A DNA stretch of 40,715 nt. Origin: Nautiliaceae bacterium. Its GTDB lineage: Bacteria; Campylobacterota; Campylobacteria; Campylobacterales; Nautiliaceae. The position numbers and the translations under genes are program-made. The stretch covers positions 1 to 40,715 of the forward strand of contig JALVTJ010000019.1 of assembly GCA_027036005.1 (NCBI GenBank), written 5' to 3'. Shown in pieces: positions 8,901-15,515 of this stretch. Each line of letters begins with the position of its first letter. Position 1 is the first letter of the stretch. The notes under the pieces are model-generated. The model was not told where the DNA came from. It saw only the letters and a program-made list of their open reading frames with translations, and searched no databases.

Positions 8901-9134
8901 ATGTTTGAAGAAATGATAATAGATGAAAACAATGTGGGATTTATTCCTTCTCTTGGAATATCTTTTCAGATGAACGATACGGCTAAAAAAATTATTGAGC
9001 TTATCAAAGAAGGAAAAAACAAAGAGGATATTGTTAAAATTCTTTCGGACGAATTTGACGTGAGCTGGCAAGACGTATATATTGATGTGGAAGATTTTTT
9101 TCAAAAACTTAAAGTATACGGACTTATAAAATGA
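8901..9134 (+). CDS. PqqD-like small protein (possible RiPP-recognition-element fold)
   Basis: 77 aa; pattern 'FIPSLGISFQMNDTAKKIIELIKEGKNKEDIVKILSDEFDV....VYIDVEDFFQKLKVYGLI' resembles the PqqD family. Confidence 0.7.
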   Translation: MFEEMIIDENNVGFIPSLGISFQMNDTAKKIIELIKEGKNKEDIVKILSDEFDVSWQDVYIDVEDFFQKLKVYGLIK

Positions 9135-10138
9135 AAATAGCACTAAGCGGACTAAACAATACGGATAATCCGGCTCCCGGAATTGGAGTTGCTAAAAGTT
9201 TGAAAGCTCACGATTTAATAGGGCTTAGTTATGATGCAAATGAGCCCGGAATTTATCAGGGACTATTTGAGAAAATTTATCTGATGCCTTATCCGAGTTT
9301 GGGATATGAAGAGTTTAAGCAAAGAATTACATATATAAAAGAAAAATCCGATATTGAAGTTATTATTCCCAATTTGGATGCGGAACTTCCTTTGTATATA
9401 AAATATCAAAAAGAAATTGAAGATTTGGGGATTAAGACTTATTTGCCAAGCCTTGAATGTTTTGAAATGCGCGATAAAAGCAAACTTTCGGAATTTAGCG
9501 AAAAGCTGGGTGTAAAACATCCTAAAACAATAAAAATAACTTCTCTTGACGATTTGATTATCGCAAGCAGATCCCTCGGGTTTCCTTTAATGGTAAAAGG
9601 AAATTATTATAAAGCATATAAAGCCTATAATTTGGATGAGGCGATAGAATATTATTATAAAATCTCAAACGAATGGGGATTTCCTCTTTTAGCTCAACAG
9701 GTAATAAACGGAGTTGAAATTAATTATGTAGGGCTTGGAGATGGAAAAGAGCTAATCGGAGGAGTTGGTATTAAAAAACTCTCAACAACGGAAATTGGAA
9801 AAGTTTGGAGTGCTGTAAGCATTGATAATAAAAATCTTTTTGAAGTTAGCAAAAAATTTGTAGAAACAATAGGTTGGAAGGGTGCATTTGAATTTGAGGC
9901 TATGAGCGATGGAAAGGATATTTATCTGATAGAAATAAATCCGAGATTTCCGGCTTGGGTGCATTTTGCAACAATGCTTGGAATTAATTTGCCTGAGATG
10001 ATGATAAAACTTATTAAAGGCGAAAAAGTAGAAAAAAAATATGATTATGCATTTGAAAAAATGTATATAAGATATGTTGAAGAAGCAATGGCTGATTTTA
10101 GAGATTTTACGACATTAATAAGCAAAAAAGAACTTTAA
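9131..10138 (+). CDS. ATP-grasp ligase, CarB/PylC-like
   Basis: 4-bp ATGA overlap with the PqqD-like gene; 'FPLMVKGNYYKAYKAYN', 'GAFEFEAMSDGKDIYLIEINPRFPAWVHFA' ATP-grasp motifs. Confidence 0.85.
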   Translation: MKIALSGLNNTDNPAPGIGVAKSLKAHDLIGLSYDANEPGIYQGLFEKIYLMPYPSLGYEEFKQRITYIKEKSDIEVIIPNLDAELPLYIKYQKEIEDLGIKTYLPSLECFEMRDKSKLSEFSEKLGVKHPKTIKITSLDDLIIASRSLGFPLMVKGNYYKAYKAYNLDEAIEYYYKISNEWGFPLLAQQVINGVEINYVGLGDGKELIGGVGIKKLSTTEIGKVWSAVSIDNKNLFEVSKKFVETIGWKGAFEFEAMSDGKDIYLIEINPRFPAWVHFATMLGINLPEMMIKLIKGEKVEKKYDYAFEKMYIRYVEEAMADFRDFTTLISKKEL

Positions 10139-10147
10139 GGAGAAAAA

Positions 10148-11488
10148 ATGAGTAAAAAATATGAAAAACCGGTAATAATAAAAGTTGATTTTACAATGGC
10201 GAGCAAATACGGAAGTCCACTTAAAACCCAAAAGGTTCGAAGTGAAATAGACGATGTAAACGTAAGGGATTTGGTGGAAAAATTCGGCTCGCCATTATTT
10301 GTGTATTCCCAAAGGGCAATTGAAAACAAATACAATGAATTTAAAGAGGCATTTACTTCAAGATATCCGGATACACAGTTTTGGTGGAGCTATAAAACGA
10401 ATTATCTTGATGCAATATGCAAAGTGTTTCATAAACTCGGAAGTAAAGCCGAGGTTGTAAGCGAATTTGAATATGAAAAAGCAAGAACTCTTGGAATTGA
10501 AGGGAAAGATATTATATTTAACGGGCCTTATAAACCAAAAGATGCACTTAAAAAAGCCGTTGAAGAAGGAGCGAAAATACATATCGATCATTGGTATGAG
10601 ATAAATGACCTTGAAGAGATTGCCAAAGAGCTTGGAAAAGAGATCCCGGTGGCTATAAGATGTAATATGAATACGGGAGTTTATCCGCAATGGAGCAGAT
10701 TCGGATTTAATATTGATAACGGCGAGGCGATGGATGCGATAAAAAGAATATTTGAAGGCAAAAAACTTATTTTAACAGGGCTTCATTCTCATATCGGAAC
10801 GTTTATGTTAAGTGCGGCGGCTTACGGAGCGGAAGTTAGAAAACTTATTGAACTTAAAAACATGATCGAAGAAAATTTCGGATACGAGATTGAATATATT
10901 GATATAGGCGGGGGATTTGCAAGCAAAAACAGACTAAAAGGTGTTTATCAATCGCCAGAAGTTATAGTTCCGAGTGCTGATGAATATGCAGAGGCTATTA
11001 CCAATGCTATTTTTGAATTTAACAAAGGAAAACTTCCTAAGCTTTATCTTGAAACTGGTAGGGCATTAATTGACGAAGCAGGGTATCTGCTTACAAGTGT
11101 GTGGGCAGGCAAAAGAATGCCTGATGGCAAAAAAAGTTATATTGTAGATGCGGGAGTAAATCTGCTTTATACTGCGTTTTGGTATAATTTCGATATAGCC
11201 CTTGATAAAAGATATGAAGGACTTAATGAACCTTCAATGATAAATGGACCGCTTTGTATGAATATTGATGTTATTTCCGAAAATATTATGCTACCGCCTC
11301 TAAATAGAGGGAGTGTTTTAAGTATTTGGCCGGTTGGAGCTTATAATGTTACTCAATCAATGCAGTTTATCAGATATAGACCGAGAATAGTCTTAATAGA
11401 TAAAGATTCAAACCCTCATTTGATAAAGGAGGCTGACGATTTGGATTATGTCAGAGAAAAAGAGATATTGCCTGAATATTTAAAGTGA
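10148..11488 (+). CDS. Fold-type III PLP-dependent decarboxylase (diaminopimelate decarboxylase-like) with about 40-residue N-terminal extension
   Basis: 'FGSPLFVYSQRAIENKYNEF', PLP lysine context 'WWSYKTNYLDAI', 'LHSHIGT', 'IDIGGGFA', 'LETGRALIDEAG', 'GPLCMNIDVI'. Confidence 0.88.
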   Translation: MSKKYEKPVIIKVDFTMASKYGSPLKTQKVRSEIDDVNVRDLVEKFGSPLFVYSQRAIENKYNEFKEAFTSRYPDTQFWWSYKTNYLDAICKVFHKLGSKAEVVSEFEYEKARTLGIEGKDIIFNGPYKPKDALKKAVEEGAKIHIDHWYEINDLEEIAKELGKEIPVAIRCNMNTGVYPQWSRFGFNIDNGEAMDAIKRIFEGKKLILTGLHSHIGTFMLSAAAYGAEVRKLIELKNMIEENFGYEIEYIDIGGGFASKNRLKGVYQSPEVIVPSADEYAEAITNAIFEFNKGKLPKLYLETGRALIDEAGYLLTSVWAGKRMPDGKKSYIVDAGVNLLYTAFWYNFDIALDKRYEGLNEPSMINGPLCMNIDVISENIMLPPLNRGSVLSIWPVGAYNVTQSMQFIRYRPRIVLIDKDSNPHLIKEADDLDYVREKEILPEYLK

Positions 11489-11492
11489 GCTA

Positions 11493-13496
11493 ATGGATAA
11501 AATAAAGCTTTTTTTCAAACCCTATGTTTCAATTCTTTTTTTAAGGGATTTTAAGGCTGGGTTTGTTTTGTTTTTGCTCTCTTTTTTACTTCCGAGTGTG
11601 GGTTTGCTTGGAATTGTAGCAATTATTTCAACTATTGCTTTTGCGGAAATTGCAGGTGTAAGAGAGCATTATTTAAAATACGGATTTTATTTATATAACT
11701 CTTTACTTGTCGGAATGGGTGTGGGGTATTTTTTTGATGTTAGTTTATTAAGTGTTATTTTAACGTCCATATTAGCGGTTTTGACATTTTTAATCTCTTT
11801 CGGATTAAATAGAATGTTTATCAATTTTGCCCTGCCTATACTCTCTTTTCCTTTCGCAATTGTAAGTATGCTTTTTTATTTGGCAAGTTTAAAATATAAT
11901 TCCTTAGTTACAAATATTTTACACAGAGTTCCTTTATTTGATATGAATTTGCCGTTTAGTGCGTTTTTCAAATCGATGGGAACGATTTTTTTCCTGCCTT
12001 ATAATATAGCCGGTTTAATTATTTCGTTGATTATTCTTTTTTATTCGAGAATTTTGTTTTTTTTAGCCGTAATAGGATTTATTGCGGGAGTTTGGGTTCA
12101 TTCTTTTTTTATACCTTTTAATGCGTCTTTAAATTCTTTTTATAATTTTAATTTTATTTTAATTTCGATGGCTTTGGGCGGAATATTTTTAATTCCTAAT
12201 ATCAGAAGTTATGTTATAGCTATAATTGCCGTTATTTTATCCGTAATTTTAATTGATGCTTTTGTTGTGTTTTTTAATCTTTATTTACTTCCTGTTTATA
12301 CGCTTCCTTTTAATATGATAACTACTCTTTTTATTTTGCTTGCAAGTATCGGGTATAAATATTTCAATTATTTCATTAAGGGAACTCCTGAAAAATCGCT
12401 TGAATATTATCTTTCAAACATTTTCAGATTCGGCGGAAAAGATATTAAAATAAATCTACCTTTTTCAGGTAAATGGAGTGTATATCAGGCGTTTGACGAT
12501 GAATGGACGCATAAGGGGGAGTATAAATATGCTTATGATTTTGTTATTAAAATAAACAATAAAACACATCAAAACGAAGGGACATTGTTGGAGGATTATT
12601 ATGCCTTTGGCGAGCCGGTTCTCGCTCCTATTAGCGGATATGTGGTTGCAATGAGAGATGATTTGGAAGATAATTTTATAGGGAATGTGGATAGAATAAA
12701 TAATTGGGGTAATTACATCATTATAAAAAGTTTAGACGGAACTTTTTATGTTGAAATTTCACACTTAATGAAAAATTCAATTACCGTTAAGGTAGGTGAT
12801 TATGTTCAAATGGGTCAAATTATTGGAAAATGCGGTAACAGCGGTTATTCTCCCGAACCTCACATACATATACAAGTTCAATTCTCACCTGTTCTAGGAA
12901 GTAAAACCGTGCCTTTTAAATTTATGGATTATATAAAAGGAAATAAGCTTTATTATTATTCTCTGCCGAAAAAAGACGAAGAGATAGAAGCGACAATCGT
13001 AGATAAAACAATTAGAATAAGGTTTAATTTTATTCTTGATGATAGTTTTATTTATGAAATATATGAAAATAATGAAAAAATAGATGAAATAAAATTCAGC
13101 GTTAAAATGAACGAAAAAGGAGAATTTTATTTTACGGATGGAGAAAACAGATTATATTTTTATTTAAGCGAAAAGATGTTTTATTTTTATGAATACGACG
13201 GAGGGAAAAGTTATTTAAAAGAAATTTTTAAACTCTCTCCCAGAATTCCTTTAATAAACAAAAATATAGTATATAAAGATATTTTGCCTGTAAATATTAT
13301 TAAAGGATTTGAAAAATATTTGATTGAATTTTTACTCTCATTTAATTATAATTTATTCAATAAACCAATAGAATATGAAAAAAAGCCTTTGGAGATAGTT
13401 TCAAAATTTGGTAAAGTTACTTTTTCTTTTTATGAAAAAGGATTTAAAACGATTGAATTTAAAAATAAAAAACTTATTTTAAGGAATGAAAAATGA
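11493..13496 (+). CDS. Urea-transporter-like membrane domain fused to a C-terminal M23/LytM-like domain
   Basis: N-terminal polytopic region with 'YNSLLVGMGVGYFF' and 'LPILSFPFAIVSMLFY' (UT family-like); C-terminal 'GEPVLAPISGYVVAMRDD...NWGNYIIIKS...YVEISHLMKNSITVKVGDYVQMGQIIGKCGNSGYSPEPHIHIQ' (M23). Confidence 0.8.
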   Translation: MDKIKLFFKPYVSILFLRDFKAGFVLFLLSFLLPSVGLLGIVAIISTIAFAEIAGVREHYLKYGFYLYNSLLVGMGVGYFFDVSLLSVILTSILAVLTFLISFGLNRMFINFALPILSFPFAIVSMLFYLASLKYNSLVTNILHRVPLFDMNLPFSAFFKSMGTIFFLPYNIAGLIISLIILFYSRILFFLAVIGFIAGVWVHSFFIPFNASLNSFYNFNFILISMALGGIFLIPNIRSYVIAIIAVILSVILIDAFVVFFNLYLLPVYTLPFNMITTLFILLASIGYKYFNYFIKGTPEKSLEYYLSNIFRFGGKDIKINLPFSGKWSVYQAFDDEWTHKGEYKYAYDFVIKINNKTHQNEGTLLEDYYAFGEPVLAPISGYVVAMRDDLEDNFIGNVDRINNWGNYIIIKSLDGTFYVEISHLMKNSITVKVGDYVQMGQIIGKCGNSGYSPEPHIHIQVQFSPVLGSKTVPFKFMDYIKGNKLYYYSLPKKDEEIEATIVDKTIRIRFNFILDDSFIYEIYENNEKIDEIKFSVKMNEKGEFYFTDGENRLYFYLSEKMFYFYEYDGGKSYLKEIFKLSPRIPLINKNIVYKDILPVNIIKGFEKYLIEFLLSFNYNLFNKPIEYEKKPLEIVSKFGKVTFSFYEKGFKTIEFKNKKLILRNEK

Positions 13497-14089
13497 AAAA
13501 GTTAATTGTTTTTTTGGCTGTTTTTTTATTTGCATTTTCCAATAAAGATATTCAACAAATCTATTATAAATCCTATAATTATGAAAAAATGGGGGATTAT
13601 AAAGACGCTATTAAAATATTAATTCCTCTTTATAATAAATATCCAAAAGGCTATACGATTAATTTAAGACTCGGATGGCTTTTTTATTTGAATAAAGATT
13701 ATATAAATTCAATAAAACATTATCAAAAAGCTTCTTTGGTTATGCCTTATTCTGTTGAACCTAAACTAGGTCTTATGAGGGATTATATTGCTATGCAGAA
13801 TTATAAAAACGCTTTAAAAGTAGGTAATTTGATTTTAAGAGAGGATTATTACAATTATTATGGCAATTATTATGAAATATTGGCTTTAAAAGGGATAAAA
13901 GATTATAAAAACGCTTTAAAAATAACAAATAGAATGTTGACTCTTTATCCGACATCGGTTTTATATTTAAATTCTCTGGGTGAAATTTATTATGTAAGCT
14001 CTAAAAAAGATTTGGCAAAAAAAATATTTGAAGATGTATTGATACTTGATCCTAATAATGTTTTTGCAAAGAGTTATATTCAAAAATGA
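13493..14089 (+). CDS. Secreted/periplasmic TPR-repeat protein
   Basis: N-terminal signal-like 'MKKLIVFLAVFLFAFS'; TPR-like helices 'YKDAIKILIPLYNKYPKGYTINLRLGWLFYLNKDYINSIKHYQKASLVMP'; 4-bp overlaps with both neighbours. Confidence 0.78.
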   Translation: MKKLIVFLAVFLFAFSNKDIQQIYYKSYNYEKMGDYKDAIKILIPLYNKYPKGYTINLRLGWLFYLNKDYINSIKHYQKASLVMPYSVEPKLGLMRDYIAMQNYKNALKVGNLILREDYYNYYGNYYEILALKGIKDYKNALKITNRMLTLYPTSVLYLNSLGEIYYVSSKKDLAKKIFEDVLILDPNNVFAKSYIQK

Positions 14090-14679
14090 GGATTTTAATA
14101 TTTGGAGTTGAATTTGAGTGCAGTGATTTCGAATGCAAATATGTTTTTGATGAAGAAAAATTTTTTAATGAAATTTTATTTAAACATTATGAAGTTTTGA
14201 TTATAAATTTTGATTTTTTATCATCTTTTTTGGAAGTTAACAAATTTTTTAAAGGAATGGTTATTTTTATTTATACTTTTGCCGATAGACTTATATATAA
14301 AAGAGCTTTGGAGGTTGGAGATTATTTTTATACATTTGAAGAAACATGGGAAATACCTTACAGACTTAGATATATTTCAAAAAAAATATTAAATCGAAAA
14401 AGCGATATTTTTGTTTTTAACGATTTGGTTTTTAACCTTAAAACAAAAGAGTTATACAAAAACAGAGTCAATATTAAACTCTCTCCTGCTGAAAGAGATG
14501 TTTTGAAATTGCTTATAGAAAATAAAAACAGATTTCTCTCAAAGGAATTTATTGTGGAAAATAGTGAAAATATTGATAATATTTCAAGTATAAAAGTTAT
14601 AATTTCAAATCTTAGAAAAACAGGGTTTGAGATTGATAATCAAAAAAATTTAGGATATAAAATTAAAATAAAGGAGTAA
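14086..14679 (+). CDS. Winged-helix (OmpR/PhoB-type) regulator with degenerate receiver-like N-terminus
   Basis: C-terminal 'KLSPAERDVLKLLIENKNRFLSKEFIVEN....ISSIKVIISNLRKTGFEIDNQKNLGYKI' is a trans_reg_C-like wHTH; N-terminus lacks canonical acidic cluster/phospho-Asp. Confidence 0.75.
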   Translation: MRILIFGVEFECSDFECKYVFDEEKFFNEILFKHYEVLIINFDFLSSFLEVNKFFKGMVIFIYTFADRLIYKRALEVGDYFYTFEETWEIPYRLRYISKKILNRKSDIFVFNDLVFNLKTKELYKNRVNIKLSPAERDVLKLLIENKNRFLSKEFIVENSENIDNISSIKVIISNLRKTGFEIDNQKNLGYKIKIKE

Positions 14680-14681
14680 AA

Positions 14682-15515
14682 ATGAAAAAATTACTTTCAA
14701 TCGCTTTACTTGCGAGTTTGGGTTTTAGTGCAGAATTTACTTTGATGCCTTATGGTAGTTATATCAATTATTCGGGTTCTAGTAAAGATAATGCAAAACT
14801 TGGCGGAATTTATTTAAGCTGCTTTAATTCTCCTTTTAAATTAGAAACCGACGGAGAATTTTTAAAAATAAATTACAAAGACGGAATTGCTAATTATTAT
14901 CAAAGAGATTTGACATTTATAGGGCATTATTATATCGGGGACAATTATGAAGTGCATGCAGGTATTCATAATATTTTTATTACGCAAGCAGATAATCCCA
15001 ATCATTATCAAAAAGTTTTATTTGGAGGTGTTTTATATTATAAATATTTGAAATACAATACTGGAATTGATTATTATTATTCCGATTATAGTGGATTTGA
15101 TGTTAAGCAGATAACTCCTAAATTGGGATTTAATTTCGGTAATTATTATTCATATACAGGCTCTTTTTATGCAGAGGCAAAAGTTAATTATATTAATATT
15201 TCAGATAAAACAAAAGCCGGAACTCCGGATGATAATTATTGGAATACCGATTTAAAACTTTCTAATTTCCAAGGTCCATGGACTACAACTTTAAAAGCTT
15301 CTCTTGGTAAATATGCTTATAAAGTGGCAAACGGGGGATTTGTGGTTTATAATTTGGGTGATGAATACAAATACTCTTACGGCATAGATATAAATTATGC
15401 CCTTTCAAAACAAAACAGTATTAAAGCCGGATTTACAAGAAGTAAATTTGATGAATCTGATAATAACGATTGTTACTCAAATACATTTTTGGTTTCGTTT
15501 GTTACTTCTTTTTAA
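14682..15515 (+). CDS. Predicted outer-membrane beta-barrel protein
   Basis: Signal peptide 'MKKLLSIALLASLGFSAEF', alternating aromatic/polar strands, C-terminal Phe ('FVTSF'). Confidence 0.65.
   Translation: MKKLLSIALLASLGFSAEFTLMPYGSYINYSGSSKDNAKLGGIYLSCFNSPFKLETDGEFLKINYKDGIANYYQRDLTFIGHYYIGDNYEVHAGIHNIFITQADNPNHYQKVLFGGVLYYKYLKYNTGIDYYYSDYSGFDVKQITPKLGFNFGNYYSYTGSFYAEAKVNYINISDKTKAGTPDDNYWNTDLKLSNFQGPWTTTLKASLGKYAYKVANGGFVVYNLGDEYKYSYGIDINYALSKQNSIKAGFTRSKFDESDNNDCYSNTFLVSFVTSF

Follow-up and report, generated by a model that had tools for sequence, protein, structure and literature searches.

What seven genes packed head to tail on the forward strand do together is the question raised by positions 8901-15515 of a 40,715-nucleotide stretch of DNA from a Nautiliaceae bacterium of the hydrothermal-vent type (contig JALVTJ010000019.1 of GenBank assembly GCA_027036005.1; the whole stretch analysed is referred to as the window). 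The block is one conserved unit. Its genes almost certainly form one functional system, which probably makes a small nitrogen-containing compound and carries it across the cell envelope. The genes are:

8901-9134, + strand: PqqD-like protein, 77 amino acids (aa); PF05402, 45.9 bits (Pfam cut-off 23.4); core.
9131-10138, + strand: ATP-grasp ligase, 335 aa; ATPgrasp_Ter, 39.4 bits (cut-off 29.1); core.
10148-11488, + strand: fold-III pyridoxal phosphate (PLP) decarboxylase with an FslC-like pocket, 446 aa; Orn_Arg_deC_N, 110.3 bits, and Orn_DAP_Arg_deC, 43 bits; core.
11493-13496, + strand: UT/M23 fusion, with a urea-channel-like domain, an M23 domain and a C-terminal beta-rich domain; UT, 195.9 bits, and Peptidase_M23, 49.1 bits; core.
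13493-14089, + strand: TPR protein, 198 aa, with a signal-peptide-like N-terminus; TPR match (Pfam); core.
14086-14679, + strand: winged-helix (wHTH) OmpR-type regulator, 197 aa, the recognised part being the DNA-binding domain only; Trans_reg_C PF00486, 30.8 bits; accessory.
14682-15515, + strand: predicted outer-membrane (OM) beta-barrel, 277 aa, with a signal-peptide-like start and a C-terminal Phe; no Pfam family; core.

All seven open reading frames (ORFs) and their junctions were confirmed as the initial annotation had given them, including the run into recO, which the OM protein gene overlaps by TAATG at 15515. The junctions are gaps of at most 9 bp (9 bp between ATP-grasp and decarboxylase, 4 bp between decarboxylase and UT/M23, 2 bp between wHTH and OM protein) or overlaps of 1-4 bp, those of 4 bp joining pqqD to ATP-grasp (9131-9134), UT/M23 to TPR (13493-13496) and TPR to wHTH (14086-14089). 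In a genome of only 1.4 Mb (97% complete), tight packing alone is weak evidence, and conservation was therefore tested.

An ATP-grasp ortholog is present in 17 of the 20 other family genomes searched, representing five genera; outside the family, one genome (G032) has it. Within the Nautiliaceae the surrounding gene order is kept; it breaks only at contig ends, where the wHTH gene is missing (G005, G007 and G019) and where G013 has frameshifts. At the G013 locus (L045, G013:C1:197000-216000) the decarboxylase, UT/M23, TPR, wHTH and OM genes are frameshifted and pqqD and ATP-grasp are intact, which reflects either gene decay or assembly indel errors. The flanking cfa and recO genes are confined to this genus, and the flanks differ in the other Nautiliaceae genera; hence 8901-15515 is the unit. 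The system is dispensable, since a genome of the same genus (G002, 96% complete) lacks both ATP-grasp and UT/M23.

Searched with the ATP-grasp alignment, 85,462 species genomes yielded 527 relatives. The best 80 loci were read; the linkage fractions derive from these and may be lower among the rest. At loci long enough to judge, PqqD lies beside ATP-grasp in 76 of 76 and is its most constant partner, followed by the decarboxylase (72/73) and UT/M23 (59/61); the OM protein (46/50) and the TPR protein (43/50) are found nearby, and the wHTH gene at only 11 of 36. The core of the system is accordingly PqqD, ATP-grasp, PLP decarboxylase, UT/M23, OM protein and TPR. For these six the block content first proposed stands; wHTH is optional rather than a full member, and recO is no part of the system. 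The next commonest neighbour family, a histidine kinase, occurs at only 11 loci, and farther neighbours (ABC transporter, HtrA-like protease, D-Ala ligase-like protein, S74, IS605) recur too rarely to yield clues.

The hosts of the best 80 loci are Campylobacterota, Thiotrichaceae, a Francisella isolate, Aquificota, Desulfurobacteriaceae, Desulfofervidaceae, Thermodesulfobacterium hydrogeniphilum, Verrucomicrobia, Gemmatimonadetes, WOR-3 and Melioribacter. Variations of the block occur in Campylobacterota, Thiomargarita, Aquificota, Thermodesulfobacterium, Verrucomicrobia and other groups. Many of these loci come from metagenome-assembled genomes (MAGs), whose taxonomic labels can be wrong. 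Contigs titled Klebsiella pneumoniae or Akkermansia muciniphila (L111 and L123, also L113, L118 and L125) carry blocks close to the Verrucomicrobia MAG versions, and their labels are probably wrong. In a WOR-3 MAG (L120:10107-12517), UT/M23 is directly followed by genes for an HtrA-like protease and for another ATP-grasp, which is of the D-Ala-D-Ala ligase type.

Among 249 Campylobacterota genomes of at least 90% completeness, ATP-grasp, UT/M23 and the OM protein each occur in 16, and these are the identical 16. The distribution is patchy within genera (in g22, G059, G061 and G066 carry the block and G037 lacks it; in g10, G084 carries it and G025 lacks it), consistent with the block being gained and lost as a whole. 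Pairwise divergences of ATP-grasp, decarboxylase and UT/M23 are correlated (r 0.94-0.96, 30 loci), with a contribution from shared species history. It is because of the identical phyletic sets, the linkage across many phyla and this correlation that the genes are regarded as one system, and the conserved co-occurrence that the initial annotation had made the touchstone of its interpretation is indeed seen. On plasmids, homologues are limited to distant ATP-grasps and decarboxylases, save for a Streptomyces fusion described below.

The open literature (subscription literature was outside the scope) contains no description of this gene combination or of its product that we could find, nor a paper uniting three of PqqD, urea transporter, diaminopimelate decarboxylase, ATP-grasp and M23; within it, the early impression that no described pathway has this composition holds. 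No protein of the block passes a specific curated NCBIfam cut-off. The system is new by composition, while its enzyme logic has precedents in rhizoferrin and butirosin synthesis.

The three enzyme or enzyme-like domains retain their catalytic residues. In ATP-grasp, K116, K156, E254, E256, E268, N270 and R272 are invariant in a 44-sequence alignment, and the AlphaFold model is of high confidence (pLDDT 93.2). The best matches in the PDB are 2pn1 (uncharacterised), carbamoyl phosphate synthetase (CPSase), biotin carboxylases and PylC (4ffl, 4ffm), the matched PylC structures containing lysine or lysine-Ne-D-ornithine. PylC shares the ATP-grasp fold and couples an amino acid to the lysine side chain; however, identity to it is only ~17%, its partners PylB and PylD are missing here and biotin carboxylases match equally well. 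Structural likeness thus leaves the reaction undecided and allows side-chain amide ligation.

The initial annotation had called the decarboxylase similar to diaminopimelate (DAP) decarboxylase and had considered that it might be the sole lysA of the genome. The latter is excluded by a separate full lysA elsewhere (531.6 bits with model TIGR01048, cut-off 297.9), against which the window protein reaches 229.4 bits, below the cut-off; speA is also present. The resemblance is instead to FslC (FigC) of Francisella rhizoferrin synthesis: with the FslC model NF041039 the window protein scores 225.0 bits, missing the cut-off of 500, as compared with 106 for the LysA of the genome. FigC positions were mapped onto 16 members of the decarboxylase family. 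The catalytic residues K63, R151, H198, G237, E287, R290 and C354 of FigC are all retained, and K83, H215, E302, R305 and C370 of the window protein are invariant. FigC T327, Y331 and M355 correspond to T342, Y346 and M371, all invariant except for a single Phe at Y346 (15/16). In LysA the counterparts are Arg, Tyr and Glu, and the Arg and Cys-Glu serving the far end of DAP are replaced by T342 and M371 in 16/16. The residues contacting citrate in a docked FigC model, H357 and R387, are I373 and Q403 in all 16. FigC acts on N-citrylornithine produced beforehand by the ligase FigA, and docking of N-citrylputrescine placed its amide close to R290/Y331 and its aliphatic portion close to M355 (PMC7857480). 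With the amide-side pocket kept and the citrate contacts lost, we infer that this family decarboxylates a diamino acid that carries, in amide linkage, an acyl group other than citrate.

The pairing of a ligase with a PLP decarboxylase of the alanine-racemase fold is shared with Francisella rhizoferrin synthesis (FslA/FigA and FslC/FigC). The ligase there is an NRPS-independent siderophore (NIS) synthetase, whereas here it is an ATP-grasp enzyme, and UT/M23, PqqD, TPR and OM proteins stand where Francisella has an MFS exporter and a siderophore receptor. In butirosin side-chain synthesis, ligation by the ATP-grasp enzyme BtrJ is followed by decarboxylation by the fold-III PLP enzyme BtrK, whose structure (2j66) is among the PDB matches of the window decarboxylase. 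The present block differs in lacking aminoglycoside genes and an acyl carrier protein, with the PqqD-like protein in place of the latter. Independent support for the coupling of the two activities comes from a Streptomyces zaomyceticus plasmid (NZ_CP108525.1; L133:7995-10271), on which a 758-aa protein annotated as hypothetical fuses an ATP-grasp domain (27% identical) to a fold-III PLP decarboxylase with the C-M motif. Downstream of the fusion gene lie genes for a 195-aa protein, whose family is unknown, and for a fatty acid desaturase; this locus is possibly a separate undescribed pathway. Because of the fusion, the FigC-like amide-side pocket, the action of FigC after its ligase and the PylC-like ATP-grasp, ligation followed by decarboxylation is given a slightly better than even chance.

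The UT/M23 protein combines a urea-channel-like domain (residues 5-284), an M23 domain (about 318-480) and a beta-rich C-terminal domain (about 485-667). The first is a complete two-repeat, 10-helix fold as in the bacterial urea transporter dvUT of D. vulgaris (3me1/3k3f; TMt about 0.8) with both pore motifs, LPxLSxPF and PxxTxPF. It departs from dvUT in the two domains fused at its C-terminus, in the mouth glutamate position, which is variable (T/A/G/E), and in the absence of urease; the score with the urea-transporter model yut (TIGR03441, 76.1 bits) is far under the cut-off of 274.6. The M23 domain has a LytM-type fold, and its zinc and catalytic residues H340, D349, H424, H457 and H459 are invariant in 45 sequences. 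Known urea transporters have both termini in the cytoplasm. Among 45 homologues the predicted inside loops carry mean charges of +1.33, -0.33, +1.27, +1.07, +0.93 and +1.38 (average about +0.9) and the predicted outside loops 0.00, -0.33, -0.76 and -0.02 (average about -0.3). Based on UT homology and these positive-inside charges, the M23 domain is predicted, with fair confidence, to lie on the cytoplasmic face beside the three soluble proteins and not in the periplasm, where it had been placed originally. In an uncultured proteobacterium (L130:12412-14502) M23 is intact and the membrane domain, positive at both ends, has diverged beyond recognition by the Pfam UT model.

The OM protein matched no Pfam, NCBIfam or PDB family, by single sequence or profile, save weakly a designed transmembrane barrel, and could not be assigned to a named barrel family. 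At Verrucomicrobia-type loci a TPR domain is fused to its N-terminus. Immediately downstream of the block, two loci (L058:15014-16890 and L060:14957-16902) have two divergent OM gene copies on the opposite strand. Upstream of pqqD at L104, L109 and L117, a histidine kinase and an OmpR-type (wHTH) regulator suggest two-component control, where the window has an orphan regulator only.

We therefore propose a six-gene synthesis-and-transport system, tentatively and, as a whole explanation, at somewhat below an even chance. ATP-grasp, with the PqqD-like protein as partner, would spend ATP on linking a carboxylate with the amino group in the side chain of a diamino acid, and the PLP enzyme would remove the alpha-carboxylate from the resulting amide to leave an N-acyl (or N-aminoacyl) amine. 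This small product would pass the inner membrane through the urea-channel-like pore; the cytoplasmic M23 zinc hydrolase tail may trim or release it, or hydrolyse it on re-entry, and the TPR protein and the OM barrel would take it across the outer envelope. An amino-acid-derived small compound is a plausible product class, and export is weakly favoured over uptake. A more specific arrangement, a membrane-bound production line with ligase, decarboxylase and PqqD at the cytoplasmic mouth of the pore, where the zinc-hydrolase tail of the pore itself would complete or release the product on its way out, is rather doubtful.

Several points weigh against this proposal. The residue roles in FigC derive from docking, and the ATP-grasp fold fits biotin carboxylases and CPSase as well as PylC, which makes amide ligation not certain. 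To our knowledge, M23 enzymes are almost always extracytoplasmic, and the topology given here is a prediction in which the inside loop 53-64, alone among six, does not show a positive net charge. Urea transporters are passive channels for small neutral solutes, and an N-acyl diamine would be charged. Finally, with no peptide as substrate, the presence of PqqD lacks an explanation.

This last point leads to the alternative that survives best, improbable as it is: a RiPP (ribosomally synthesized and post-translationally modified peptide) or pearlin-like system, in which a peptide whose gene lies elsewhere would serve as leader or scaffold: PqqD would bind it, ATP-grasp attach an amino acid to it, the decarboxylase modify this residue and M23 free the product at the cytoplasmic face. 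PqqD is the founding RiPP recognition element, and its unbroken association with ATP-grasp as well as the predicted cytoplasmic M23 with an intact zinc site would suit this reading. The window protein belongs to the same Pfam fold family as PqqD and the PqqD-like chaperones of lasso peptides but falls far short of the curated thresholds for PQQ and lasso proteins, and the block lacks a precursor peptide, a radical SAM or other RiPP enzyme and a lasso cyclase. Among 122 candidate small ORFs (15-75 aa, with a ribosome-binding-like site) within 2.5 kb of the block, none was shared between loci, and a RiPP function is therefore without local support. A LysW-like carrier function by C-terminal attachment was ruled out, since the PqqD C-terminus is not conserved. 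Searches with the PADLOC anti-phage defence models gave no system match and only a weak CARF match to PqqD (18.5 bits). PqqD may be a partner of the ligase or may recognise a peptide encoded elsewhere.

Less probable still is a cell-wall system, in which a periplasmic M23 domain would cut peptidoglycan and the synthesised amine would be either put onto the wall or removed from it. Peptidoglycan is the substrate of known M23 enzymes, the fold is of the LytM type and the TPR and OM partners look envelope-located; however, the 10-helix UT domain and the positive-inside pattern predict a cytoplasmic tail, and G002 shows that the genes are not needed for growth. A metallophore analogous to rhizoferrin, a small chelator made by the ligase and the FslC-like decarboxylase and exported through the pore, is unlikely: the reaction logic and the pocket are in common, but the citrate-binding H357 and R387 are invariantly Ile and Gln here, the barrel has only 277 aa, and neither a TonB-type receptor nor an IucA/IucC-type NIS synthetase is among the conserved genes (the rest of the genome was not searched for the latter). 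Very unlikely is a role in taking up urea or some other simple amide and degrading it, in which the enzymes that look synthetic would serve in salvage. The full UT fold and family membership and a hydrolase at the inner mouth would agree with it, but the mouth glutamate and the yut score do not, urease alpha was not found in this genome, and urea as nitrogen source does not support growth of the relative Nautilia profundicola (PMC2628731). Chance packing of unrelated housekeeping genes with the decarboxylase as lysA, as the small genome, the tight spacing and the adjoining recO and cfa might suggest, is refuted by the separate lysA, the persistence of the block despite changing flanks and the identical phyletic sets, and retains practically no probability.

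Since many Gram-negative phyla keep these genes as a unit, with chemosynthetic vent bacteria as the most visible carriers, the unit must benefit its hosts by what it makes or moves. The findings suggest that the metabolite is new, that the urea-channel fold is used here in a new way and that an M23 enzyme possibly works on something other than the wall. As the enzymes are soluble and ATP-grasp is predicted to fold well, the product can be searched for directly. If the production-line arrangement is true, the block would represent a new type of machinery for making small molecules and exporting them, and its M23 domain would be cytoplasmic and would not act on peptidoglycan.

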